Of a stretch of 15,182 nucleotides of DNA, positions 3,781-15,110 are shown piece by piece. Position numbers and translations under genes: made by a program. The notes under the pieces were generated by a model. The model was not told where the DNA came from. It saw only the letters and a program-made list of their open reading frames with translations, and did no database searches. The stretch's first letter is position 1, and the number at the start of each line of letters is the position of its first letter. Source of the stretch: Vicinamibacteria bacterium (GTDB lineage Bacteria; Acidobacteriota; Vicinamibacteria; Vicinamibacterales; 2-12-FULL-66-21); assembly GCA_025937075.1 (NCBI GenBank), contig JAICSD010000051.1, positions 1 to 15,182 on the forward strand. Reading direction: 5' to 3'.

Positions 3781-6411
3781 TTACTCCTGACGCAGTGCCT
3801 CCATCGGATCCACGCGTGACGCGCGCGACGCCGGGATGTAGCAGGCGATGAGCGACGCCGCGGCGAGCACCGCGACAACGCCAGCGTAGGTGAAGGGATC
3901 GGTCGGGGAGACGCCGAAGAGCGCGCTGCGCAGCACGCGGCCGGAGATCAGGCTCAGCGCGGCCCCGATCCCCAGGCCGGCGATCGTCAGGCGGACGCCT
4001 TCCGCGATCACCGATCGCACAATCTGGCGTGCGGAGGCACCGAGCGCCATGCGCACGCCGAAATCCCGCGTGCGGCGCTTCATCGTGAACGCGAGCACCG
4101 CATACTGCCCGAGCGTCGCGATCAGCAGCGACGCCGCGGCGAACAGCGTCAGCATCGTCGTCAGGATGCGGACGACGGACGTCATTCCCTCGAGCTGCGT
4201 CTCCATCGTCCGCATGTAGACGATCGGCGCGCGGGAATCCACGTCCGCCAGCGCGCGGCCGATCGCCGGCGCGGTCGGATCGAGCGGTCCGGCGTACCGC
4301 ACGTAGAACGTGGCGCGGCCCGGCGTGTGGGGGTCCGTTCGCATCGGCACGAACACGAAATACTGACGCTCCTCGCGGCGGAAGCCGCTGAAGAACGCGT
4401 TGGGTGCGACGCCGACCACCTCGACGGGCTGGCGATCCGTACTCAGGAGCACCGTTCGGCCGACCGCCGTCTCGCCCGGCCAGAGGGCTGCGGCGAGGTT
4501 CTCGTTGATCACTGCCGCCGTGGTCGTACGCGTGCGGTCCTCGCGCGTCAGCTCGCGGCCGAGGCGCGGCGCGAGCCCAAGGACGCGCAGGTAATCGGGT
4601 CCGACACTGTTTCTCTCGGCGCTGATCGGCTGCGCCGCGCCCGCAACGCGCACCTGCTCGGTGCCCCAGAACTCCTGGGGCGGCGTTCGCGCGTACGCCG
4701 CGCTTTGTACGCCCGGCACGCTCATCAGACGCTCGCGCATGCGATCGAGCAACGTCGCCTGCAGTCCTTCGGGCACCCCTTGCGCGTCGATCGTCACGAG
4801 CAGCAGGCCGGTCTTGTTGAATCCGAGATCGAGCGCTTCCACGAGCGACAGCGATCGATACGCGAGACCGGCGCTCGCGAGCAGCAGCACGGCAAAGGCG
4901 AGCTGAAGGAGGACAAGTCCGTTCGCGACGCGCGAGCGTCCTCGAACCACGCCCTGTTCTCCAGCCTTGAGGAACGGCAGGAGATCCTGACGCCACGTGC
5001 GGACGGCGGGGGCCGCGGTGAATGCGATCGTACCGATGGCCGCCAGCACCATCGCATACGCGATCACCTTCCAATCGGGCGTGAAGTCGAGTGCGATCGG
5101 GTCTCCAGCGTCGCCGCTCGGTGCGATCAGCCGTGGGAGGAGCTTCGATAAGGTCCACGCAAGGAGACACGCCGTGCCCCATGCGGCGGCGGAGATCGCA
5201 GCACCTTCAGCGATCACGAGCCTGACGACCCTGGATCGAGACGCACCGAACGATTGCCGGACGGCCATTTCCCGCTGCCGCACGACGGCGCGCGCCAGCA
5301 TCAGGTTTGCGACGTTCGCGCAGACGATCAGCAGCGTCAGCGCCGTGATGATTGAAAAGATCGCGAGGAACTGCGGGGCGCCCTGCGCGATCGGGCTGTC
5401 GCCGGCGGCCATCCCGGAGTACGGGAAGAGCGCGATCGTCTTTCCTTTGTTTGCCTCGGGATGAGACGCCCGCAGCCGCGCCGCGATCGTGCTCAGCTCG
5501 GCTCGCGCTTCGGCCAGCGACGAGTCGGGCGCGAGCCGTCCGACCATGGCAAGGGCACCCCAACGCCCATCTTGGAGCTCGCCAGCCCTGCCGCGCACAC
5601 GCGCATAAGCGGCGATCGGCACCCAGACGTCTGATCGCTCGAAGAGCCACACGCCCTGGAATCCAGGTGGCGCGATGCCGACGATCGTAGCCGGATAGCC
5701 GTTCAGCATCACGGTCTGGCCGATCGCCTCGTCGGCACGCTGGAAACGCTCGAGCCACACGCGATCGCTGATGACCGCCGTCAGCGCCGATCCGCGCGCC
5801 TCGTCTTCGGTGAACCCGCGGCCGCGCGCCAGCGTGAGGCCCATCGTGTCGAAGTAGTTCGGCGTCACGAGAGCGCCGTGCACCGCGTAGCTGCCGTCGT
5901 GATAGGTGAGCGTGAAGCGCTCGAACTGGAACCCGAGGAGCGGCCGTACGGTGCGCGCCTGCGCGGCGACATCGACGTAATTCGCGTAGCTGTCGACGGG
6001 GTGGACAGGCTGACGATCGACCGACCAGCCAAGGGAAACGAGACCGCGCGCCGGGATTGCCGGCGCGGGCTTGGTCAGCAGCCCGTGGACGCTCGAGAAG
6101 ATCGTCGTGTTGCCGCCGATGACGAGCGCGATCAGCGTGATTGCGGTGAAACTGACGCCCGGGGAGCGCGTGAGGATTTGAACGCCCGACCGGAGGTCCG
6201 CGATGAACTGCTCGACGGCCGTCCACGTCCACACGGCGCGGACGTCTTCCTGCGTGGCCCGGAAGTTGCCCAACTCGAGCAACGCCGCGCGGCGGGCTTC
6301 CTCGGGCGCCTCGCCGCGATCGATGCGTTCCTGGATCGCGAATGCGAGGTGTCCGCGCAGTTCCTCGTCGATCGTCTCGTCGGTCGGGCGGCGCCGGAAG
6401 AGGCCGCGCAT
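3781..6411 (-). CDS. ADOP-family duplicated orphan permease (MacB/FtsX type)
   Basis: 876 residues, the usual length for acidobacterial duplicated orphan permeases. Order of parts: a cytosolic prefix (residues 1-75, DETIDEELRGHLAFAIQERI and EARRAALLELGNF); a first membrane helix near 85-107 (SPGVSFTAITLIALVIGGN); a MacB-like extracytoplasmic domain to about 335; an FtsX core with the motif REMAVRQSFGASR near 380; then a second copy with its own helix (VLLQLAFAVLLLASAGLAYR, about 500-520), a second extracytoplasmic domain, and a C-terminal FtsX core with RRTRDFGVRMALGAS ending SRASRVDPMEALRQE. No ATPase gene is present in the window, as expected for an 'orphan' permease; substrate unknown. ATG 6411 is preceded by an in-frame TAG seven codons upstream and has no clear Shine-Dalgarno. 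A perfect inverted repeat lies 5 nt before the start codon, so repression there is plausible. ADOP genes are commonly associated with PadR-type regulators, but none is adjacent. Confidence 0.92.
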   Translation of the reverse strand: MRGLFRRRPTDETIDEELRGHLAFAIQERIDRGEAPEEARRAALLELGNFRATQEDVRAVWTWTAVEQFIADLRSGVQILTRSPGVSFTAITLIALVIGGNTTIFSSVHGLLTKPAPAIPARGLVSLGWSVDRQPVHPVDSYANYVDVAAQARTVRPLLGFQFERFTLTYHDGSYAVHGALVTPNYFDTMGLTLARGRGFTEDEARGSALTAVISDRVWLERFQRADEAIGQTVMLNGYPATIVGIAPPGFQGVWLFERSDVWVPIAAYARVRGRAGELQDGRWGALAMVGRLAPDSSLAEARAELSTIAARLRASHPEANKGKTIALFPYSGMAAGDSPIAQGAPQFLAIFSIITALTLLIVCANVANLMLARAVVRQREMAVRQSFGASRSRVVRLVIAEGAAISAAAWGTACLLAWTLSKLLPRLIAPSGDAGDPIALDFTPDWKVIAYAMVLAAIGTIAFTAAPAVRTWRQDLLPFLKAGEQGVVRGRSRVANGLVLLQLAFAVLLLASAGLAYRSLSLVEALDLGFNKTGLLLVTIDAQGVPEGLQATLLDRMRERLMSVPGVQSAAYARTPPQEFWGTEQVRVAGAAQPISAERNSVGPDYLRVLGLAPRLGRELTREDRTRTTTAAVINENLAAALWPGETAVGRTVLLSTDRQPVEVVGVAPNAFFSGFRREERQYFVFVPMRTDPHTPGRATFYVRYAGPLDPTAPAIGRALADVDSRAPIVYMRTMETQLEGMTSVVRILTTMLTLFAAASLLIATLGQYAVLAFTMKRRTRDFGVRMALGASARQIVRSVIAEGVRLTIAGLGIGAALSLISGRVLRSALFGVSPTDPFTYAGVVAVLAAASLIACYIPASRASRVDPMEALRQE

Positions 6412-6416
6412 ATGGC

Positions 6417-6431
6417 TGTAGACGTTCTACA
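6417..6431. promoter_or_regulatory. Inverted repeat at the ADOP start, operator candidate
   Basis: TGTAGA-CGT-TCTACA is a perfect 6-bp inverted repeat with a 3-bp centre, 5 bp upstream of the ADOP start codon. Its size and symmetry fit a site for a dimeric winged-helix repressor (BlaI- or PadR-type), which would block transcription or translation start. The regulator is not identifiable from this window. Confidence 0.4.
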
Positions 6432-6459
6432 CCCATGGACCGTCGGTTGTCCACTGCCG

Positions 6460-6475
6460 CAGCATCCATATGCTG
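6460..6475. repeat. Short inverted repeat in the divergent region
   Basis: CAGCAT (6460-6465) and ATGCTG (6470-6475) are perfect inverted repeats around CCAT. It lies between the two divergent genes and may be a regulatory site or chance. Confidence 0.3.
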
Positions 6476-6484
6476 GGCCGCGCC

Positions 6485-6514
6485 GATCTCGACGTGTGCG
6501 GCTCGCGGGAGCGG
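6485..6514 (+). repeat. 30-bp near-copy of the nucleotidyltransferase catalytic segment
   Basis: The 15-mer GATCTCGACGTGTGC (6485-6499), two differing bases (GG), then CTCGCGGGAGCGG (6502-6514) match 7064-7093 of the downstream nucleotidyltransferase gene at 28 of 30 positions, where they encode DLDVCYSRER. Similarity stops abruptly on both sides. Here it is non-coding, or would read DLDVCGSRER in a frame not used by any gene. Confidence 0.75.
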
Positions 6515-6526
6515 CCCGTGGCCGGT

Positions 6527-6551
6527 GGAGGGCAATATACATGTGTATAAT
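6527..6551 (+). promoter_or_regulatory. Operator-like palindrome, TATAAT box and ribosome-binding site
   Basis: TATACA-TG-TGTATA (6536-6549) is a perfect 6-bp inverted repeat with a 2-bp centre. A perfect TATAAT (6546-6551) overlaps its right arm, though no good -35 box stands 16-18 bp upstream. GGAGGG (6527-6532) lies 10 nt before GTG 6543. If TATAAT is the true -10, transcription starts near 6558 and the mRNA would be essentially leaderless from GTG 6558; if the GGAGGG site is used, the promoter is further upstream. Either way the palindrome is placed for autoregulation. Confidence 0.45.
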
Positions 6552-6956
6552 GTGGATGTGGAGCCCGTACATCACCAGGTGCTGGAAGCCGCGCGTGAGG
6601 CGGCGTCCGACAACTGGACGTTTCGCATCCCCGATGTCACGGCGGCGCTCCCGCACTTGAATGCCCCGACTGTCCGCACGCACATCGCGAGCCGCTGCTG
6701 CGTGAACGCGCCAGCCAATCACCAGTCGCGTTACGGCTATTTCAGAGCGCTTCGCCGCGGGCTCTACCGCATCGAGCCGGCGTTTCGCCGCCGACGATCG
6801 CGGCGCCCCAGACCTTCGCAGGACATCATTCTGTCGTCCATCGACAGCGGCGTCGACCCGACGCTCCTGGCGGAATCGCTCGCGATGGCCCCTACCGAGC
6901 GCCTCGAAATAATGCGGCGAGCCGCGCGTTCCCTCGACGGCCTTCGACCCTTGTGA
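6543..6956 (+). CDS. Winged-helix protein paired with a nucleotidyltransferase (antitoxin-like)
   Basis: 137 residues from GTG 6543 (GTG 6552 and 6558 are alternatives). Residues about 10-77 look like a winged helix: HHQVLEAAREAA, a DVTAALPHLNAPTVRTHIAS helix-turn-helix (about 31-50, recognition helix near 42-52), and a wing YGYFRALRRGLYRI (64-77). The C-terminal part (about 95-137) has SIDSGVDPTLLAESLAMAPT then ERLEIMRRAARSL, a short helical segment often seen in proteins encoded just before small nucleotidyltransferases. The stop overlaps the next start as GTGA, so the two are translationally coupled. By analogy with AbiEi (winged-helix antitoxin) and AbiEii (nucleotidyltransferase toxin) this could be a DNA-binding antitoxin, but no sequence homology to AbiEi is claimed. 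A plain transcription factor is the alternative. Confidence 0.7.
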   Translation: MYNVDVEPVHHQVLEAAREAASDNWTFRIPDVTAALPHLNAPTVRTHIASRCCVNAPANHQSRYGYFRALRRGLYRIEPAFRRRRSRRPRPSQDIILSSIDSGVDPTLLAESLAMAPTERLEIMRRAARSLDGLRPL

Positions 6957-7465
6957 CGCCGGACTTTCGGAAAATCTTCGAAGCTCTTGCGAAATCAGAG
7001 GTCGATTTCGTCGTGATTGGCGCCGTCGCCATGGTGCTCCACGGCTCGGCGCGCGTCACGCGCGATCTCGACGTGTGCTACTCGCGGGAGCGGCACAATC
7101 TCGATCGACTTGCGAAGGCGCTGAAGCCGTTCGCGCCAACGCTACGCGGGGCGCCGGAGGATTTGCCGTTCTCGCTCGATGCTGCGACGCTGCAGGCAGG
7201 ACTGAACTTTACGTTGCAGACGACGGCCGGGGATCTTGACCTGCTTGGCGAAGTCACAGGGATTGGCGGATACGCCACCCTCGCGCGGCTCTCCCTCGTC
7301 ATGACGGTGTACGATCGCGACGTGCGCGTCCTGAGTCTCGATGGGCTCGAGCGAGCCAAGCGCGCCGCTGGCCGGCTCACGGATCTCGCCGACCTTGCGG
7401 AGATTCATGAGATCCGACGCCTCACCAGACGTGACGACACTGGACGCGGCCGTGAGCGGACGTGA
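6953..7465 (+). CDS. Small nucleotidyltransferase (AbiEii/DUF6036-like fold)
   Basis: 170 residues, GTG start overlapping the previous stop. It shows the polymerase-beta-like nucleotidyltransferase signature: hydrophobic strand VDFVVIGAVAMVLHG, then GS (31-32), and the metal-binding pair D38-L-D40 in RVTRDLDVCYSR; a third acidic site is likely at D94/D96 in TTAGDLDLLGE. The C-terminal GLERAKRAAGRLTDLADL matches the conserved Lys-rich AAGR motif of AbiEii-like proteins. Such enzymes transfer a nucleotide or nucleotides to RNA or protein; as toxins they modify tRNA ends. Whether this one is toxic is unknown. It is coupled to the winged-helix gene before it and separated by only 3 nt from the cyclase gene after it. 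The segment encoding residues 38-47 recurs at 6485-6514. Confidence 0.85.
   Translation: MTPDFRKIFEALAKSEVDFVVIGAVAMVLHGSARVTRDLDVCYSRERHNLDRLAKALKPFAPTLRGAPEDLPFSLDAATLQAGLNFTLQTTAGDLDLLGEVTGIGGYATLARLSLVMTVYDRDVRVLSLDGLERAKRAAGRLTDLADLAEIHEIRRLTRRDDTGRGRERT
7064..7093 (+). repeat. Source copy of the 30-bp repeat inside the nucleotidyltransferase gene
   Basis: Encodes DLDVCYSRER, the metal-binding loop. It is the in-gene partner of the displaced copy at 6485-6514, differing at positions 7079-7080 (TA instead of GG). Confidence 0.75.
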
Positions 7466-7468
7466 CGC

Positions 7469-9523
7469 GTGTCGGTAACAACTGCCCGTAAGCTCGGCGC
7501 TGGTGTCGCGCTTGGCGCCGCATCCGCGTCGTTGGTGCTGCTCCTCGCAAGCGTCACCCCCGTCCGCGGATTCTTCGACACCGCCGAGCTGAAATCGTAC
7601 GACTGGCGAATCCGCCGCGCTGCGGAGCCCGCGTCAATCAACCACGACATCGTTCTCGTCGGCATCAGCGACACGACGATCCGCGATCTGGAGCCGCTGT
7701 TCGGTCACTGGCCCTGGCCGCGCGTGGCGCTGTCCTATGTCATCGACTATCTCGCCCGCGCGCCCGCGAAGGTCATCGCCGTCGATCTTGCCCTGACCGA
7801 GCGCGATCGTGTGCAGCGCTATGACATCGGGGATGGGGCTTGGACCGGATCGGGTCGCGACAGCGACGCCGCGCTCGCCGAATCCGTAAAGAAGGCCGGA
7901 AACGTCATCATGCTGGCGGATGCCGTCGGCAACGGCCTGGAAGGCGCTGATCAGCAGAAGGGTGCCGACTGGCGCGACGCAGGGTACAGCGTCCGCAGCG
8001 TCGCGGAGCCGCGGCCCGTCATACTTGCGCCTTACCCTGAACTGTCTGCAGCGAGCGTTGCGCTCGGCCACAATTTCCTCGCCCTCGATCCGGACGGCCC
8101 CGTACGCCGCATGGTGCCATTCGTCAGAAACGGCGGCAACGTGCTGCCGTCCCTCGGCCTCGCGGCGGCGCTCGACGTATCCGCCGTGGCGCCGCGGAAC
8201 GTCTCATCGAATGGTACGGATCTGGTTCTCGGCTCGACGCGTGTCCCGCTCCTGCCCGTTAGGGTCCGCGACGCATCCGATCGCGCCACGCCCACGCACA
8301 CGCAATGGACCATGATGATCGACTACAAGGCGCCCGCGGCGCTCCCGGACGGGCAGACGCCGTACGAGTCCTACGAGTTCCGGCACCTCTTCGAATCCGA
8401 GCAGCAGATCCTCGCGGGCGTGGCGCCGCACATCGATCCTTTGCAATTCCGCAGCAAGATCGTGTTCATCGGCTTCACCGCGTCTGGCCTTCGCGATGCC
8501 TTCAACACGCCGTTCGGCGAGGGGACGATGTCGGGGATTCAGCTGCACGCGAGCGTCGCGGACAGCGTGCTGTCGAAGCGATTCATCCGGCCCGCCTCAC
8601 TGGCATCACGAATCGGTTCGACGCTCGCGATTTCCGGTGCCGTCGGGCTGTTGGCGGCGCTGCTCCCGTTGTGGTTTGCGGTGCTCACGTCCCTGGCTGT
8701 TCTGGCCGCGTGGGTATGGACGACAGCGGCGATGTTCGGCGGCGGTCTGTGGCTCAATCTCACGCAGCCGCTCGCCGCCGGGGGGCTCGCACTGTTCGGT
8801 GGGACCGCTTACCAATATTTCATCGAAGGGCGCGAAAAGCGGAAAGTGAAGCGCCTGTTCGGCCGATACGTCTCCCGGGATGTCTACGCGCAGCTGCTGG
8901 CGCACCCGGAGCTCGCGGAGCTTGGCGGGAATCGGCGCGAGATGACCGTCCTGTTCTCCGATATCCGAGGATTCACGACCGTCACCGAGCGCGGCAACCC
9001 GGAAGACATCGTCGCGCAGTTGAACGAGTACTTCTCGAAGATGGTCGACGTCGTCTTCCGCCATCATGGTACCGTCGACAAGTTCGTTGGCGACATGGTG
9101 ATGGCGCTCTTTGGCGCGCCGGTCGACGACGAGCAGCACGCGGAGCATGCGGTGGCGGCGGCGATCGACATGGTGCGCGAGCTTGGTGGCTTGAACCGAC
9201 GCTGGGCGGCGGCTGGCATGGCGCAGCTCGACATCGGCATCGGCGTCAATTCGGGAGAAATGATTGCGGGCAACATCGGATCGTCGTCGATCATGAGCTA
9301 CACGGTAATCGGCGACAACGTGAACCTCGGGTCCCGGCTCGAATCGCTCAACAAGGAATACAAGACGCGGATCATCATCAGCGATGCCACACGTGCGCGG
9401 CTCAGCGGAACCTACGACCTGCGACCCCTCGGCGACGTCGTCGTCAAGGGCAAGAGCAGACCAGTGGCGATCTACGGGCTCTCGGTTCCAGCTCCGCTCG
9501 TCGAAGAGGAAGACACCCTATGA
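7469..9523 (+). CDS. CHASE2-domain class III adenylate cyclase, membrane-bound
   Basis: 684 residues. TM1 at about 9-30, then an extracytoplasmic CHASE2 sensor (from AELKSYDWRIRR and HDIVLVGISDTTI to about residue 360), three membrane helices (about 378-450), a linker EGREKRKVKRLFGRYVSRDV, and a C-terminal cyclase domain (about 490-684). Catalytic residues look complete: metal ligands D498 (FSDIRGF) and D542 (FVGDMVM), adenine-selecting K538 and D616, and transition-state residues N619 and R623 (NVNLGSRLE). It should therefore form active homodimers making cAMP from ATP in response to an external signal. GTG 7469 starts 3 nt after the nucleotidyltransferase stop with only a weak ribosome-binding site, suggesting coupling. 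The stop overlaps the protease start as ATGA. The nearby channel gene with a cyclic-nucleotide-binding domain is its obvious effector candidate. Confidence 0.93.
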   Translation: MSVTTARKLGAGVALGAASASLVLLLASVTPVRGFFDTAELKSYDWRIRRAAEPASINHDIVLVGISDTTIRDLEPLFGHWPWPRVALSYVIDYLARAPAKVIAVDLALTERDRVQRYDIGDGAWTGSGRDSDAALAESVKKAGNVIMLADAVGNGLEGADQQKGADWRDAGYSVRSVAEPRPVILAPYPELSAASVALGHNFLALDPDGPVRRMVPFVRNGGNVLPSLGLAAALDVSAVAPRNVSSNGTDLVLGSTRVPLLPVRVRDASDRATPTHTQWTMMIDYKAPAALPDGQTPYESYEFRHLFESEQQILAGVAPHIDPLQFRSKIVFIGFTASGLRDAFNTPFGEGTMSGIQLHASVADSVLSKRFIRPASLASRIGSTLAISGAVGLLAALLPLWFAVLTSLAVLAAWVWTTAAMFGGGLWLNLTQPLAAGGLALFGGTAYQYFIEGREKRKVKRLFGRYVSRDVYAQLLAHPELAELGGNRREMTVLFSDIRGFTTVTERGNPEDIVAQLNEYFSKMVDVVFRHHGTVDKFVGDMVMALFGAPVDDEQHAEHAVAAAIDMVRELGGLNRRWAAAGMAQLDIGIGVNSGEMIAGNIGSSSIMSYTVIGDNVNLGSRLESLNKEYKTRIIISDATRARLSGTYDLRPLGDVVVKGKSRPVAIYGLSVPAPLVEEEDTL

Positions 9524-10656
9524 GAACAGCGGTACTTGCCCTGACGGCAGCACTCTCAGCGGCTCCGGCGTATGCCCAGTTCGGCGACGTGCTGAACAAG
9601 ATTCAGAAGGCCAAGGAGAAGGTCGACGAGCTGAACATCGACGACCGGGAAGAGCGGCAGCTCGGAGAGACCGTCAGCGCGAACCTGCGTGAGAAGTACG
9701 GCGTCGTGCAGAGCGAGGAGCTGACGAAGTACGTGACGCTCGTCGGCACCGCGCTGGCCCAGGCCAGCACGCGCCCGAATCTCAATTGGCGGTTCATCGT
9801 CCTCGACACGGACGGCGTGAACGCGTTTGCGGCGCCAGGTGGAATCGTCCACGTCACCCGCGGCCTTCTCGGCCTGGTCAGGAACGAAGCGGAGCTCGCG
9901 GGCGCCCTGGGCCACGAGATCACGCACATCACCGTGAAGCACACGGTCAGGGCCATCGAGAAGTCGAAGACCATTCAGATGGCGAGCGACGAAGCCGGCA
10001 GCGGCACCGCGCGCGATCGCTTCGTGGCCAGGCTGGCGCAGGAGGCGTACAACAGAATCCTCAACAACGAATTCAGCCGCGAGGACGAGAGCGAGGCCGA
10101 CAGGGTTGGCGTGCAGCTCGCGAGCCGGCTTGGATACGCGCCCCATGGCCTCGTGGACGTGCTCCGGAAGCTGGACGCGCGCAACTCGGGCCGTGACGAG
10201 CGCAACGGCCTGTTTGCGTCACACCCGGCGACGAAGGAGCGGATCGATCGGCTGGAGAAGCAGATCAAGGACGAGAAGCTGACGGGGAACGCCATCGTCG
10301 AGGCCCGCTACGCGCAATACGTTCACTTCGAGGCGAAGCCGCTCGGCGACATTGCCGTCGGCGCGGACGGCGCCGCGGGTCTCGCCGGCGGCTCGAGCGC
10401 GACGAAGAATTCCAAGGACACGCAGGAGTCCAAGGACGCGCAGCAGCCAGCGGAGCCGAAGAAGAAGGGAAGCCTGCTCAGCAAGTTCACGACGTCTTCG
10501 AGCAGTGAGAAGCAATCGACTCAGACGATCGCGTCGGCAGGCGCCCGCGGGATCGGCCCCGATCGCGACGCGAAGGGTGGACCGAACAAGAATATCGTCG
10601 TCGTGACGGTGACAGCCGCTGAGGTCGCGGCGTTCAAGAAGGGCATCACCGCGTAG
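9520..10656 (+). CDS. Exported M48-family zinc metalloprotease
   Basis: 378 residues from ATG 9520, which overlaps the cyclase stop and has GAGGA 9 nt upstream. The signal peptide MRTAVLALTAALSAAPAYA is probably cleaved before Q20. The M48 core includes NAFAAPGGIVHVTRGLL, the zinc motif H132-E-I-T-H136, and the third ligand E192 in EDESEADRVG; LFASHPATKERIDRL follows as in BepA/YfgC- and LoiP-like periplasmic proteases. After about residue 270 comes a non-conserved Ser/Lys/Gln-rich linker (about 290-340, PKKKGSLLSKFTTSSSSEKQ) and a conserved-looking end NKNIVVVTVTAAEVAAFKKG. It probably acts on outer-membrane or periplasmic proteins. Its place between a cyclase and a channel suggests envelope quality control linked to that signalling unit; a role in processing CHASE2 or the channel is speculation. 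Confidence 0.92.
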   Translation: MRTAVLALTAALSAAPAYAQFGDVLNKIQKAKEKVDELNIDDREERQLGETVSANLREKYGVVQSEELTKYVTLVGTALAQASTRPNLNWRFIVLDTDGVNAFAAPGGIVHVTRGLLGLVRNEAELAGALGHEITHITVKHTVRAIEKSKTIQMASDEAGSGTARDRFVARLAQEAYNRILNNEFSREDESEADRVGVQLASRLGYAPHGLVDVLRKLDARNSGRDERNGLFASHPATKERIDRLEKQIKDEKLTGNAIVEARYAQYVHFEAKPLGDIAVGADGAAGLAGGSSATKNSKDTQESKDAQQPAEPKKKGSLLSKFTTSSSSEKQSTQTIASAGARGIGPDRDAKGGPNKNIVVVTVTAAEVAAFKKGITA

Positions 10657-10665
10657 CTGCCTTCC

Positions 10666-12105
10666 ATGATTCAGGCTTCGGGTCACCTCCTCCTCAGCGT
10701 TGCCGCGCTGGCGGTGACGGCCGGGTTCATGGGCCTGACCGTCAACCGCCTCGTCAAGCGGAAGCTGCGGCTGTCGGTTCTGCTGCTGGTCGCGGCGATC
10801 GGGATCAGCCTCGTCGAGCTGTTCTATCGCGGCCTCACACCGGACGCGGCCGCGCAGCTTCACGCCTTCCAGAATCTCGCGATCGCCGCCGCGTTGATCA
10901 ACGCCGTCGTCCTGATTGCGATCAACCCGCTGCGCGCCGATCGCGTGCCGGAGCGGTTTCCCGCTATCGTGCAGGACGCGGTGATCATCGGCCTCGTCCT
11001 CCTTGCCGCTACGTACCTGAGCGACAAGCTGCTGACGACGTCCGCGGTGAGCGCGGTGGTGCTCGGCTTCGCGCTGCAGGACACGCTCGGAAACGCGTTC
11101 GCAGGGCTGGCAATCCAGAGCGAGAAGCCATTCCATGTCGGCCACTGGATTCGCGTCGGGGACTTCGAGGGGCGCGTCGCGGAAGTCACGTGGCGCGCGA
11201 CGAAGCTTCGCACGAAGTCAGGCAATTTCGTCATCCTTCCGAACAACATCGTCGCGAAGGAGGCGATCACGAACTATTCGGAGCCGCTCGCTCCAACCCG
11301 GCTGGACGTGGACGTCGGCGCGTCCTACCTCGTGGCGCCGAACGACGTGAAGGCCGCAATCATGGAGGCGCTCCGGAACTGTGCGCGCGTCCTGACGACC
11401 CCCGCGCCTGACGTGACGCTGTTGTCGTTCGACGACTCTGCGATCACGTATCGCGCGCGGTTCTGGGTCGAAGACTACGAGCGTGACGAAGCGGCGCGCG
11501 ACGAAGTGCGCACTGCCATCTATTACGCGTTTCGGCGCAAGAACATCGAGATCCCGTGGCCGATTCAGGTTCAGTACGAACGCGCGCTTCCCGAACCCGA
11601 TCCCGACGCCGCGCTCGAGGAGCGGGAGCGGCTGCTCCTCGGCGTCGACTTGCTCGCAGCACTTCCACCGGAGCTCAGGCACGAGATCGCGATCTCTGCG
11701 CCGCTCACCGTGTTCGGGAGCGGCGAAGCCATCGTCCGGCAGGGCGAGCCGGGTCAGTCGATGTTCATCGTCTGCAGCGGAGCGGTGCGGGTCGTGCTCG
11801 AGCCGCAGCGCAACGAGGTCGCGCGAATCGAGCGCGGCGGATACTTTGGCGAGATGTCGCTGCTGACGGGGGAGCCGCGGTCGGCGACCGTGCTGGCCGC
11901 CGGGGACGCCTCGGTCGTCGAGATCGGCGTGCAGCTGTTCCGACGCCTTGGTGCCGCTCATCCTCACGCGATCGAGCAGATCGCCGTGGCGGCGATGGCG
12001 CGGCGCGCCGACCTGGATCGCGTCAAGACCGCCGCGGCCGGAGTCGTGGCGGTCGAGACGCACACACTGCTCACGCGGATGAAGAAGTTCCTCAGGCTCT
12101 CGTAG
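10666..12105 (+). CDS. MscS-family channel with C-terminal cyclic-nucleotide-binding domain (bCNG-like)
   Basis: 479 residues. Several N-terminal membrane helices (about 7-26, 35-55, 65-85, 98-118) lead into an MscS pore helix and beta domain: SAVVLGFALQDTLGNAFAGL (residues 129-148), then QSEKPFHVGHWIRVGDFEGR and VILPNNIVAKEAITNYS. After about residue 330 there is a CNMP-binding fold: VFGSGEAIVRQGEPGQSMFI and the phosphate-binding cassette FGEMSLLTGEPRSATV with G395, E396 and R405. This is the architecture of bacterial cyclic-nucleotide-gated MscS relatives, which open on cAMP binding and are poorly mechanosensitive. A short basic tail (MKKFLRLS) follows. It starts 9 nt after the protease stop without a clear ribosome-binding site, so coupled translation is likely. 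With the cyclase two genes upstream, cAMP gating is the natural hypothesis. Confidence 0.93.
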   Translation: MIQASGHLLLSVAALAVTAGFMGLTVNRLVKRKLRLSVLLLVAAIGISLVELFYRGLTPDAAAQLHAFQNLAIAAALINAVVLIAINPLRADRVPERFPAIVQDAVIIGLVLLAATYLSDKLLTTSAVSAVVLGFALQDTLGNAFAGLAIQSEKPFHVGHWIRVGDFEGRVAEVTWRATKLRTKSGNFVILPNNIVAKEAITNYSEPLAPTRLDVDVGASYLVAPNDVKAAIMEALRNCARVLTTPAPDVTLLSFDDSAITYRARFWVEDYERDEAARDEVRTAIYYAFRRKNIEIPWPIQVQYERALPEPDPDAALEERERLLLGVDLLAALPPELRHEIAISAPLTVFGSGEAIVRQGEPGQSMFIVCSGAVRVVLEPQRNEVARIERGGYFGEMSLLTGEPRSATVLAAGDASVVEIGVQLFRRLGAAHPHAIEQIAVAAMARRADLDRVKTAAAGVVAVETHTLLTRMKKFLRLS

Positions 12106-12147
12106 CGCGCGACTTCAGTTGCGCGTCGGGGCGATCAGCGACGCCCC
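12106..12147. terminator. Tandem hairpins between convergent genes, possible bidirectional terminator
   Basis: Hairpin 1 spans 12106-12125: CGCGCGAC pairs with GTTGCGCG around TTCA, 8 bp with one G-T pair. Hairpin 2 pairs GGGGCG (12128-12133) with CGCCCC (12142-12147) around 8 nt. They fill the 29-nt gap between the channel stop and the convergent minus-strand gene and overlap that gene's stop. No T-tract, so termination is inferred from position. Confidence 0.4.
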
Positions 12148-12821
12148 TCACGATACGCGCGCTCGTATCCCTGCTGGAATCCACGGCGGTACTGCGCTTT
12201 GTAAGCATCGCGCGATCCGTAGCGCCCCTCGTAATGGCGATCGCCGTCGCGGTACCACTTCTGTCGCGCGTAGTCGGGATACTTCCGATCGTGAAGATCG
12301 TCGAGGCCTTTTTCGTAGCCGTCGTTCAGGCCGTTCTGGAACCCGATGTCCGCCGTGTAGCCGTAGCCTGCGCCGGGATACGACGGATATCCACTCGGAT
12401 ACTGGCCAGGGTAGCCGTAGCCGCGGTCACGCCGGACCACTCCGCCATTGTTGCCGTAGTAGCCGCCGTTATATCCGTATCGATCGTACGCCGTACGATA
12501 TCCGTCCCGATAGCCGTTCCGGAAGTTGTCCCGATACCGATCCTTGTCGCCGTAGTTGTGGTTGTACCCCTTGTCGGCCTTGCGATAATCTTTCTCACGC
12601 TCGACGTCGAGGCCCTTGCGATCGCGTACGGCGGATTCGCCGTCGTGCATGCCTTCGCGATAGCCATTGTCGTAAGCAACGCGGCGCGAATCGTACCTGG
12701 AGTTGCCATAGTCGCCCCAGTACGGCGAACGCTGGGCCATCCACTGATTGAATTGCTGGGCGCCGGCGGGGGCAGCGACGAGCAGCAACGACGTGCCGAA
12801 GACGAATGCGCGTATGGACAT
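12135..12821 (-). CDS. Secreted Tyr/Gly/Arg-rich repeat protein of unknown function
   Basis: 228 residues. Signal peptide MSIRAFVFGTSLLLVAAPAG then AQQ. The mature protein is extremely rich in Tyr, Gly, Arg and Asp. Four imperfect copies of a 13-residue motif with Gly every fourth position occur: AYDNGYREGMHDG, FRNGYRDGYRTAY, FQNGLNDGYEKGL and YRRGFQQGYERAY. Between copies 2 and 3 lies a flexible YGYNGGYYGNNGG and YGYPGQYPSGYPSYPG spacer. The motif would form amphipathic helices with a small-residue face. Start: GGAG (12830-12833) 8 nt before ATG. The nearest minus-strand gene upstream ends at 12939. I do not recognise a function; an envelope-associated or surface structural role is only a guess. 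Confidence 0.75.
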   Translation of the reverse strand: MSIRAFVFGTSLLLVAAPAGAQQFNQWMAQRSPYWGDYGNSRYDSRRVAYDNGYREGMHDGESAVRDRKGLDVEREKDYRKADKGYNHNYGDKDRYRDNFRNGYRDGYRTAYDRYGYNGGYYGNNGGVVRRDRGYGYPGQYPSGYPSYPGAGYGYTADIGFQNGLNDGYEKGLDDLHDRKYPDYARQKWYRDGDRHYEGRYGSRDAYKAQYRRGFQQGYERAYREGRR

Positions 12822-12938
12822 AGGATCTGCTCCAGCAGGTGTTCTGCGCCGGAATGAGCAAGATCCTTACCCGCGCCGCGCGGTGAAACGGGCCGGAAAA
12901 CGAAGGATTTGCGTCGAGTGGTCGCCGCGGAAGGACAG

Positions 12939-13439
12939 CTACTGCGTCCAGACGAGGACACGCTCCCCGCCGTGTCCTCTGTGATCGACGATGAGCGTGG
13001 GGCCGTAGCGCTCGAGATCTTCGACCGACAATTTGAGGTCTTCGAGATCCACGCTGTCGCCGCCGATCCCGACGCGCGTGCCGCGCATCTTCAGCCGCAG
13101 CAGCCAGAACGGGATCTCCATCCGCACGGCGCGTCCCTCGTCCGGATCGAACGCGAGGATGTTCAACGAATCGGGCCGCTTCGCCTCCGCCGGCGGGCGC
13201 TTCGCGTTCGAGCGGACGAAGTGGCCGCGCTCGTCCAGCTCGATGAGCGGCTTCTCCTCCTTGAAGCGCTCACGGACGCGCTGGAAATCGTCCGAGACGC
13301 TGGCGGACGTTGCGGACGTGACGTTGATGTGCGTTTTCGCGAACCAGAGTCCGGCGGCGGCGAGACCGATCAGGCAGAGAATGCCCAACACGAAGACACT
13401 GACGACGACCCAGACCCACGTCCTGACTTTGCCAGCCAT
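12939..13439 (-). CDS. One-TM protein of unknown function
   Basis: 166 residues from ATG 13439; the frame is open upstream, but those codons lie inside the TPR gene and look non-coding. One membrane helix (residues about 8-33, VWVVVSVFVLGILCLIGLAA), then an extracytoplasmic or cytosolic domain with LNILAFDPDEGRAVRMEIPF, WLLRLKMRG and a C-terminal LSVEDLERYGPTLIVDHRGH then GGERVLVWTQ. It starts 10 nt after the stop of the TPR gene with only a weak AAGAGA site, so the two form an operon. The shape (anchor plus small domain with an FWLLRL core) recalls an uncharacterised acidobacterial family; no function can be assigned. Confidence 0.75.
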   Translation of the reverse strand: MAGKVRTWVWVVVSVFVLGILCLIGLAAAGLWFAKTHINVTSATSASVSDDFQRVRERFKEEKPLIELDERGHFVRSNAKRPPAEAKRPDSLNILAFDPDEGRAVRMEIPFWLLRLKMRGTRVGIGGDSVDLEDLKLSVEDLERYGPTLIVDHRGHGGERVLVWTQ

Positions 13440-13449
13440 CACGTCTCTT

Positions 13450-14631
13450 TCATTTGACGAGCCGCTTCGACTGTTCGACGCATATCGGATCCGAATCTCT
13501 TTCGCAGGCGTCGATCGCCTGCGCGGCCTGCGTCCGCGCCGCCGCGCCGTTGCCTTCGCGCAGCGCGAGCCGCCCCAGCTCGAGGTGCGCACGCCCCTGG
13601 ACCCAGACCGGAGAGTCGGGACCAAGCGCGATCTCCAGGTCCCGGCGCGCCTCTTCCGCGCGCCCGAGCAGCACGCGCGCGGCGCCGCGCTTGTAGTGCC
13701 AGAGCCCGGCCTCGCCCGGCACTTTGCGGCGCGGGTCGTGCGAGAACATCTCGATGCCCGTGTTCAGGAGCGCCTCCGCCTCCGCGCCGCGTCCGGCACG
13801 CACCGCCGTCGCCCCAGCTTCGAGCAGCACGAGGCGGTTGCGTGGATACCGGCGATGAAGCCGATCCAGCACGGTCAGGGCGTCTGCGTATCGCTTCTCG
13901 CGGTTGTAGAAGAGGACGAGCGCGAAGAGCGCGTCCGTCTGATCCTCGCTCGGGGTCGCCGCACTCTCCTCGACGAGCCGCAGGCCGCGCTCGCGCCCGC
14001 CCCCGAAGCCCACCATGTACGCCATCAGCCGCATGGGCAGCGAGAGCGTCGAGATGAGATAGCGGTACGTGCCGACGATCAGACCCGCTTCCTTGCGTGA
14101 GGGGTCGAGCCGCAGCACGCGCTCCTGTTCGTCGAAGCTCCGGCGCGCGGCCCGCAGCCCGGCGAGCAGCCGTCCTTCGACGGATGCAATATAGGACGCT
14201 TCCAGGCCGAGCGCCGTGCCGAGATCGTAGTGCGCCTGCGGATCGTTCGGCGCCGCCGCCACCCGCTGCTCCGCCAGCTCGATGGCCTTGGCGATTTCGC
14301 GCTTGAATTCCGCATCGAGCTCCGGCGCGGGTTTCGTCACCTTGATCATCGATCGCGAGACGGTGCCCAGATAGTGATCGACCGTGACGGCGCCGCGCTG
14401 GAACAGGATGTCGAGCCAGACCGACGAGGCCAGGGCGCGGTGCGTGGCCGAATCGTTCGGATCGACGGCGACGGCCTGCCGCAGGAGGCGGATGGACTCC
14501 TGCTGATCGAGGTTGTAGGCGAATTCGGCCGCGCGGTCGCGCAGTTCGCGCGCGGTTTCGGCGGCGGCTGGCACGGCGCCGGACAGGCTGGCCGCAATTA
14601 CGACGGCCGCCTGTAGTCTGCGCGGCGACAT
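13450..14631 (-). CDS. Exported TPR-repeat protein
   Basis: 393 residues from ATG 14631. Signal peptide MSPRRLQAAVVIAASLSGAV ending AAA before Glu25. The mature protein is all-helical with TPR-like pairs: about 27-66 (SIRLLRQAVAVDPNDSATHR), 108-150 (AIELAEQRVAAAPNDPQAHY), 160-195, 232-300 (FYNREKRYADALTVLDRLHR) and 312-385 (YKRGAARVLLGRAEEARRDL). A less regular stretch near 190-225 (TLSLPMRLMAYMVGFGGGRE) interrupts the repeats. It is probably a periplasmic scaffold; the partner is unknown. No Shine-Dalgarno precedes the ATG; TATCAT stands 6 bp upstream, so a leaderless or weakly initiated mRNA is possible. The one-TM gene follows 10 nt later in the same operon. Confidence 0.82.
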   Translation of the reverse strand: MSPRRLQAAVVIAASLSGAVPAAAETARELRDRAAEFAYNLDQQESIRLLRQAVAVDPNDSATHRALASSVWLDILFQRGAVTVDHYLGTVSRSMIKVTKPAPELDAEFKREIAKAIELAEQRVAAAPNDPQAHYDLGTALGLEASYIASVEGRLLAGLRAARRSFDEQERVLRLDPSRKEAGLIVGTYRYLISTLSLPMRLMAYMVGFGGGRERGLRLVEESAATPSEDQTDALFALVLFYNREKRYADALTVLDRLHRRYPRNRLVLLEAGATAVRAGRGAEAEALLNTGIEMFSHDPRRKVPGEAGLWHYKRGAARVLLGRAEEARRDLEIALGPDSPVWVQGRAHLELGRLALREGNGAAARTQAAQAIDACERDSDPICVEQSKRLVK

Positions 14632-14780
14632 ATGAATATGATAGCCGGGGGGCTGGAGCGCCTCGGATCGGTCGCCGCAGGGTGTTATGCGAGTCGGCGC
14701 TGTGGATGGGCGGTGCGGGGCCATGGGGGCGCCGCGAGCGGCCGCCTTCGCGCCCCGCGGTATTAGAGGAGGACACGAAG

Positions 14781-15110
14781 ATGCCTCGTGGCAGACGCCG
14801 CAGGAATGCGGACGCACTGATGACGTCAGCGGAATTCATCGGCTGGGCGCTGGGCGCGCTCGAGCGCGAAATCACTGAAACGAGACAGCGGCTGTCGACG
14901 CTCACCGAACAGGCGCGTCGACTCCGCATCGGGCGCGGCGGGCGGGGCGGGGGCCCCGCGGCAGCAGCCACCTTCGACGAACCGGGCGCGTCCGCGAAGC
15001 CGCGGCGCCGGCGCAAGCGGGGGATGTCGGCGGAAGCACGCAAGCGGATATCCGACCAGATGAAGAAGCGCTGGGCTGACCGCCGCCGCGCGGGCAAGAA
15101 GACGCTCTGA
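14781..15110 (+). CDS. Small basic protein with a C-terminal SAEARKRIS-KKRW motif
   Basis: 109 residues. The start is firm: GAGGAGGA (14766-14773) ends 7 nt before ATG 14781, although the frame is open further upstream. The N-terminus is Arg-rich (MPRGRRRRNAD), followed by a predicted helix or coiled coil (residues about 14-49, FIGWALGALEREITETRQRL), a Gly/Ala-rich linker, and a strongly basic end KPRRRRKRGMSAEARKRISD then QMKKRWADRRRAGKK. The MSxEARKRIxxxxKKRWAxRR motif recurs in small bacterial proteins that are probably nucleic-acid-binding. A nucleoid- or RNA-associated role is likely but unproven. It is transcribed divergently from the TPR operon. Confidence 0.8.
   Translation: MPRGRRRRNADALMTSAEFIGWALGALEREITETRQRLSTLTEQARRLRIGRGGRGGGPAAAATFDEPGASAKPRRRRKRGMSAEARKRISDQMKKRWADRRRAGKKTL

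Follow-up and report, generated by a model that had tools for sequence, protein, structure and literature searches.

The window analyzed here is the whole 15,182-nucleotide stretch of contig JAICSD010000051.1 from a Vicinamibacteria bacterium, which we take to be a soil-type bacterium. Between positions 7469 and 12105, it carries three genes on the + strand that encode a CHASE2 adenylate cyclase, an exported M48 protease, and an MscS channel bearing a cyclic-nucleotide pocket. The reading favored here, with moderate confidence, is that of a conserved sensor-cyclase and channel operon, in which an envelope signal would act through the CHASE2 cyclase and cyclic AMP (cAMP) on channel gating, the protease being placed in the periplasm. 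It is carried by the gene content, the intact residues of enzyme and channel, a linkage that is both conserved and specific, and the matched integrity of enzyme and pocket. The genes are tightly packed: the ATG of the M48 gene overlaps the stop codon of the cyclase gene (junction of −4 nt), and a spacer of +9 nt separates the M48 gene from the channel gene. The original prediction had described the same three genes and the same two junctions; the genes were confirmed by sequence and Pfam and the junctions by sequence. The features are as follows.

7469..9523, + strand: CHASE2 adenylate cyclase, 684 residues, GTG start, assigned by residues and Pfam
7544..8605, + strand: CHASE2 sensor domain, residues 26–379 (PF05226, E 4.9e-47)
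8939..9460, + strand: class III cyclase catalytic domain, residues 491–664 (PF00211 Guanylate_cyc, E 2.3e-26)
9520..10656, + strand: M48 metalloprotease, 378 residues (Peptidase_M48 PF01435, E 2.2e-31)
9520..9576, + strand: signal-peptide–like N terminus of the protease, residues 1–19, ending in AYA, read from the sequence
9913..9927, + strand: HEXXH zinc motif of the protease, residues 132–136, with H132, E133, and H136 invariant
10534..10653, + strand: conserved C-terminal tail of the protease, after a low-complexity linker
10666..12105, + strand: MscS-type channel with a C-terminal cyclic-nucleotide-binding (CNB) domain, 479 residues, assigned by Pfam and models
11032..11124, + strand: pore helix region of the channel, residues 123–153
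11713..11952, + strand: CNB domain of the channel, residues 350–429
11836..11889, + strand: phosphate-binding cassette, residues 391–408, with G395, E396, and R405

The cyclase has the layout of a sensor cyclase, its CHASE2 domain being flanked on both sides by hydrophobic segments (residues 9–27 and 394–412). All six key catalytic residues, D498, K538, D542, D616, N619, and R623, were found where the original prediction had placed them, and they are invariant in 15 sequences, the window included. They comprise two metal-binding Asp, a purine-selecting Lys and Asp, and the Asn and Arg. Judged by these residues, the protein is a class III adenylate cyclase. The channel matches the Pfam families MS_channel_2nd, MS_channel_3rd, and cNMP_binding, each exceeding its cut-off. 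In a single chain, an MscS pore and β domain are followed by a CNB domain with an intact Gly/Glu/Arg cassette, the architecture of a bacterial cyclic-nucleotide-gated (bCNG) channel. G395, E396, and R405, which had also been predicted behind the MscS pore, are present in the cassette FGEMSLLTGEPRSATV and are invariant in an alignment of 55 chosen channels, from which the dCache-linked ones introduced below were excluded. The model of the CNB domain matches the cAMP- or cGMP-bound domains of PKG, MloK1, SthK, and HCN. Among the matches listed in the PDB (60 of 265 chains, each represented by its best stretch only), no listed stretch covers both the MscS and the CNB part.

The three-gene arrangement is not due to chance because it is conserved in relatives. 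A scan with a channel profile, using one genome per species, yielded 80 loci, 38 of which belong to the subfamily of the window by hidden Markov model score. In 30 of these 38, a CHASE2 cyclase adjoins the channel; five others end too near upstream for its presence to be judged (L001, L002, L010, L014, and L036; the M48 gene is visible in four of them), one is interrupted (L019), and two are without an adjoining CHASE2 cyclase (L033 and L052). The commonest order is cyclase, M48, channel. The cyclase–M48 pair lies tail-to-tail with the channel in L011, L021, and L035, as does the cyclase alone in L027. Where both genes are separate open reading frames (ORFs) in the order cyclase, M48 (29 loci), an M48 start codon giving a 4-nt overlap with the cyclase stop is available in at least 19. 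In L026 (2788–5832), CHASE2 cyclase and M48 protease form a single open frame of 1015 codons with a signal-peptide core right behind the cyclase; this could be a genuine fusion or an artifact of assembly.

A survey of 149 genomes of the class gave the same picture. Herein, 51 genomes carry 52 subfamily channels (E up to 3.8e-120, nine weaker matches being set apart), with one copy in 50 of the 51, and 42 of the 52 channels have a class III cyclase no more than 4 kb away. The cyclase is upstream on the same strand in 40 of the 42 and tail-to-tail in two, at a median distance of 1.2 kb, and the linkage expected by chance is roughly 0.1–1.6% per channel. For two of the nine weaker matches (G718 and G671), the same contig likewise carries a cyclase no more than about 2 kb away. 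Among the ten unlinked channels, one has its locus truncated at a contig edge, the M48 gene being in place (L228), one starts 1.6 kb from an edge (G725:C133), and one has an insertion (L226). A class III cyclase occurs in 51/51 channel genomes versus 38/98 others, the number of cyclases in each genome being taken from a per-genome table. Some genomes are shared among the 80-locus scan, the Acidobacteriota sample described below, and the 149-genome survey, so the three are not independent of one another.

The linkage is specific for channels with a CNB domain. In ten genomes chosen for the channel, a cyclase adjoins 10/11 CNB–MscS genes versus 0/26 MscS genes without CNB (Fisher p 3e-8), one of the ten linked genes belonging to a degenerate pair (L214). 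In the Bacteroidota, Desulfobacterota, and Cyanobacteria samples, in which several loci are short, none of 20 non-CNB MscS loci lies near a cyclase. With 42/52 channels linked, a chance estimate of about 0.1–1.6%, and 0/20 in these controls, a chance neighborhood was ruled out. A neighborhood not conserved in relatives had been named in advance as the outcome that would speak against coupling, and the opposite was seen.

Integrity of enzyme and pocket goes together. The pocket Glu and Arg are kept in all 48 CHASE2-linked channels (41 loci once near-copies are removed), and the catalytic hexad DKDDNR is complete in 45/48 CHASE2-linked cyclases, plus the window. The other three cyclases (L158, L160, and L161) deviate at the two purine-selecting positions only. 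In these cyanobacterial loci, Glu replaces the purine-selecting Lys and the channel pocket has a Thr after the Arg; from these residues, the cyclases perhaps make a different nucleotide product. A second type of pair consists of dCache–HAMP cyclase homologues directly upstream of MscS–CNB channels (L057, L064, L069, L071, L073, L074, L075, L146, L147, and L149) from Cyanobacteria, Ignavibacteria, and Kapabacteria. All ten match dCache, mostly below the Pfam cut-off. Here, the hexad is intact in 0/10, and the pocket Arg is missing in all nine readable channels (L064 is unreadable). A further HAMP-cyclase/channel pair, L214 (G131), appears degenerate on both sides by eye, and L065 was left out of the dCache set as a probable coincidence, its cyclase being 2.1 kb off and divergent. 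At the level of residues, matched loss in the dCache pairs is what coupling of enzyme and channel would predict, and the joint loss of catalytic and pocket residues serves as a natural control.

Within the subfamily of the window, the pairing is conserved and both partners have intact residues; in the ten genomes compared, it is also specific to CNB-bearing channels. The cyclase therefore most likely makes the ligand of the channel, as the original prediction had proposed, and probably controls it. Residues and linkage are the basis for the ligand step, and the gating step would follow the precedent of bCNG channels. We infer cAMP as the physiological ligand, the direction of gating, the nature of the signal, the role of the protease, and co-transcription of the genes. 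In the proposed mechanism, a periplasmic condition or partner would be sensed by the CHASE2 domain, which would make the class III adenylate cyclase in the cytoplasm more or less active. The cAMP produced would bind to the CNB domains, possibly as a ring beneath the MscS cage of the heptamer, and shift gating of the channel, either by opening it or by altering its tension threshold. An envelope signal would thereby be converted to ion or solute flux. The BepA/LoiP-like exported protease may also work on the periplasmic side of this pathway; its simplest target would be the CHASE2 sensor or a partner in the outer membrane.

That the protease takes part in the same response had been predicted as well. 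The part that stood is that the M48 gene travels with the cyclase: the two genes remain together in four genomes whose channel lies elsewhere (L217, L218, L220, and L221), and 15 other cyclases of channel-bearing genomes show no M48 or MscS match in the stretch fetched. Membership of the M48 gene in the cyclase–channel unit is supported, but more weakly than the cyclase–channel pairing. The protein has the HEXXH motif and the third zinc ligand Glu (E190) of an M48 peptidase; H132, E133, H136, E190, and D194 are invariant in 15 sequences, the window included, and N termini resembling its signal-peptide–like stretch are also found in relatives. It scored 103 bits with the BepA model (NCBIfam NF052400, curated cut-off 570), over residues 37–242 only, and 84.8 bits with the LoiP model (NF052399, curated cut-off 365). 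In its structural model, the linker (residues 291–340) has a predicted local distance difference test score of about 30–38, and residues 351–378 reach about 87–96. This tail, predicted with high confidence beyond a disordered linker, is a possible regulatory or binding element. In Sinorhizobium, a CHASE2 cyclase is connected with a sensor in the outer membrane (PMC13001267). A periplasmic protease partner is plausible because CHASE2 cyclases of that genus respond through an outer-membrane protein (PMC13001267).

Linkage extends to other lineages. Other Acidobacteriota and Desulfobacterota also have the trio, with a changed gene order, and CHASE2-cyclase/CNB–MscS pairs are found in Cyanobacteria. 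M48, CHASE2 cyclase, and channel follow each other in L053, L058, and L144, and also in L125 and L127, with gene-length spacing between cyclase and channel; CHASE2 cyclase and channel do so in L142, L158, L160, L161, and L162. L125 contains a six-gene run (7853–15004) of an SH3 protein, M48 protease, CHASE2 cyclase, metallo-β-lactamase–fold hydrolase, MscS–CNB channel, and TrkA-domain K+ channel, whose hydrolase might, as a guess, be a cAMP phosphodiesterase. In L236 (5585–9505), another class III cyclase adjoins a different CNB-domain protein.

Several observations weigh against the coupling of cyclase and channel as proposed. Outside the subfamily, most CNB–MscS channels have no cyclase beside them. 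In the Acidobacteriota sample, 11/54 channels are linked, namely, 9/10 subfamily members (centre genome included) plus L125 and L127, and 43/54 are unlinked, the two of 56 matches that stop before the end of the CNB domain not having been fetched. Linked and unlinked channels number 2/9 and 7/9 in Desulfobacterota (leaving out the centre's own channel, L053) and 7/30 and 23/30 in Cyanobacteria (leaving out the centre's L057, G485:C47, and one partial match). None is linked among 18 fetched of 38 Myxococcota channels that reach the CNB domain, nor among three fetched in Bacteroidota (centre genome excluded). Across these phylum samples, ten of the unlinked channels have <3.5 kb of upstream sequence. 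Within the class, the channel lies away from a cyclase in 7/51 channel genomes, with no known edge or insertion explaining it. Four of these seven have a CHASE2-cyclase and M48 pair elsewhere (L217, L218, L220, and L221), and two have a CHASE2 cyclase with no M48 gene in view (L219, where the contig ends, and L224). The seventh, G122, has eleven cyclases, and the three that were read, which are included among the 15 mentioned above, are without CHASE2 or M48. The pocket Arg is kept in 97/107 unlinked channels with enough upstream sequence and lost in 10/107. The dCache pairs lie mostly within one clade; therefore, their matched loss represents few independent events. The AlphaFold2 model of the channel is a monomer with a predicted template modeling score of 0.58. 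Finally, each of the nine cassette-bearing genomes examined contains between one and nine additional PF00027 matches. Therefore, cAMP could also reach Crp-type proteins, and the cyclase may mainly serve transcription. The wording of the original prediction, a "self-contained" circuit with a "dedicated" target, was thus too strong.

The further PF00027 matches, many in frames of about 160–360 residues and thus of Crp-type size, bear on the explanation that the cyclase is a general source of cAMP acting mainly via Crp-type regulators, with the channel as one target and the proximity arising from shared envelope-stress regulation. The linked cyclase is the sole class III cyclase found in 24/42 linked genomes, where only class III was searched and genomes may be incomplete; therefore, a central role is supported, yet cAMP is probably shared. 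Against this, protease and channel are the constant identified neighbors, and no Crp-type regulator was seen beside the cyclase among the few neighbors scanned with Pfam. We consider this explanation unlikely. Improbable as well is a channel gated by tension, with a CNB domain that serves just for tuning or assembly; the operon would then be an emergency set for hypo-osmotic or envelope stress, and cAMP would play a secondary part. The channel retains intact MscS pore and cage domains; the bCNG channel Ss-bCNGa is reportedly gated in response to mechanical tension, and LoiP, which the M48 protein resembles, is named as low-osmolarity induced. The phosphate-binding Arg and Glu kept in 48/48 CHASE2-linked channels would, however, be hard to explain were ligand binding unimportant.

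Inherited ancestral gene order without functional coupling would agree with 33/42 CHASE2-linked tree rows falling within one clade, but it is very improbable. CHASE2-linked channels are spread over several parts of the channel tree, and their label changes 11 times, at least eight times on well-supported branches, in a quick tree with many weak deep forks, rows of unknown flank being left out and gains and losses taken together. The pairing is kept even where gene order, orientation, and type of sensor differ, and plain MscS genes of the same genomes are without cyclase pairing. A Pycsar-like anti-phage system, in which infection would activate the cyclase and a nucleotide-opened pore would kill the cell, was set aside as highly improbable: PADLOC models match the cyclase (Pycsar cyclase) and the CNB domain (PycTIR/PycC) by generic homology, but the cyclase carries an extracytoplasmic sensor together with the Lys and Asp that recognize adenine, and the subfamily channel is single-copy in 50/51 class genomes that have it, with neighbors mostly kept, unlike patchy defense islands.

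The sensor-cyclase and channel operon may be part of a broader pattern, which is advanced only tentatively and seems doubtful as a whole. A receptor-cyclase/cAMP-gated channel module would have been assembled repeatedly from different sensors and MscS–CNB channels. Some lineages would have decayed jointly to a pseudo-cyclase and a pocket-less channel, perhaps coupling by direct contact, and in Vicinamibacteria-type Acidobacteriota, channel gating rather than transcription would be the main task of cAMP.

Overlooked by the original prediction were two same-strand ORFs immediately 5′ of the cyclase, with junctions of −4 and +3.

6342–6956, + strand: upstream ORF, perhaps a DNA-binding protein (helix-turn-helix–like), by eye
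6953–7465, + strand: nucleotidyltransferase-like ORF, weak PF10706 match below the cut-off, +3 gap to the cyclase

Because these two ORFs lie immediately upstream on the same strand, a transcript start at 7469 is not required, and the nucleotidyltransferase-like ORF is possibly in a common transcript with the cyclase. As members of the module, both were rejected: neither has a relative in the 80 loci, some of which are short (tblastn for 6953–7465). With no match in these related loci, the region 6342–7465 may be a recent insertion. A promoter and terminator scan gave a result no better than shuffles. A conserved further partner was likewise discarded: the few downstream genes scanned differ between loci, not all clusters being identified. 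They include ornithine cyclodeaminase and proline racemase families in L012/L013 and a TPR protein in L052, and many ORFs of the downstream clusters look like overlapping frames of GC-rich DNA. Near the operon, the window also holds a gene of the ADP-ribosylglycohydrolase family (995–2077, + strand) and a MacB/FtsX-type permease gene (3781–6411, − strand).

The component families of the operon are already known. bCNG channels, reportedly described by Caldwell in 2010 and Malcolm in 2012, are MscS-superfamily channels with a C-terminal CNB domain. They share with the window channel the MscS pore, the C-terminal CNB domain, and the intact pocket; unlike them, the window operon has its own sensor cyclase and exported protease, with a candidate native ligand source in the genome. 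To our knowledge, neither the natural source of the bCNG ligand nor the role of these channels has been established, and the conserved operon names candidates for both. Among the matches listed in the open-licence literature, no paper on a cyclase beside an MscS–CNB channel was found. The prokaryotic cyclic-nucleotide-gated channels MloK1/MlotiK1 and SthK have another pore, not MscS; MloK1 may likewise have a cyclase neighbor, on which the matches listed in the open-licence literature gave no usable paper. Compared with the periplasmic M48 proteases BepA and LoiP, the window protein lies below both curated cut-offs and adds a disordered linker and a conserved tail. Pycsar systems are alike in principle in that a cyclase adjoins a CNB-domain membrane effector; the window differs by its adenylate-type residues, sensor domain, class-wide conservation, and protease partner. 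Bacterial cAMP has mostly been studied through transcription. CyaD1, CyaD2, and CyaK of Sinorhizobium meliloti likewise combine a CHASE2 sensor with a class III cyclase making cAMP, as is predicted for the window. Their listed target is the regulator Clr, with the signal passing via the outer-membrane protein NsrA (PMC13001267), whereas in the window, a channel adjoins the cyclase. The operon is a compact system for testing direct cAMP control of a bacterial membrane pore and, if the proposed coupling is true, would represent a bacterial parallel to receptor-cyclase/cyclic-nucleotide-gated channel signaling built on an unrelated pore.

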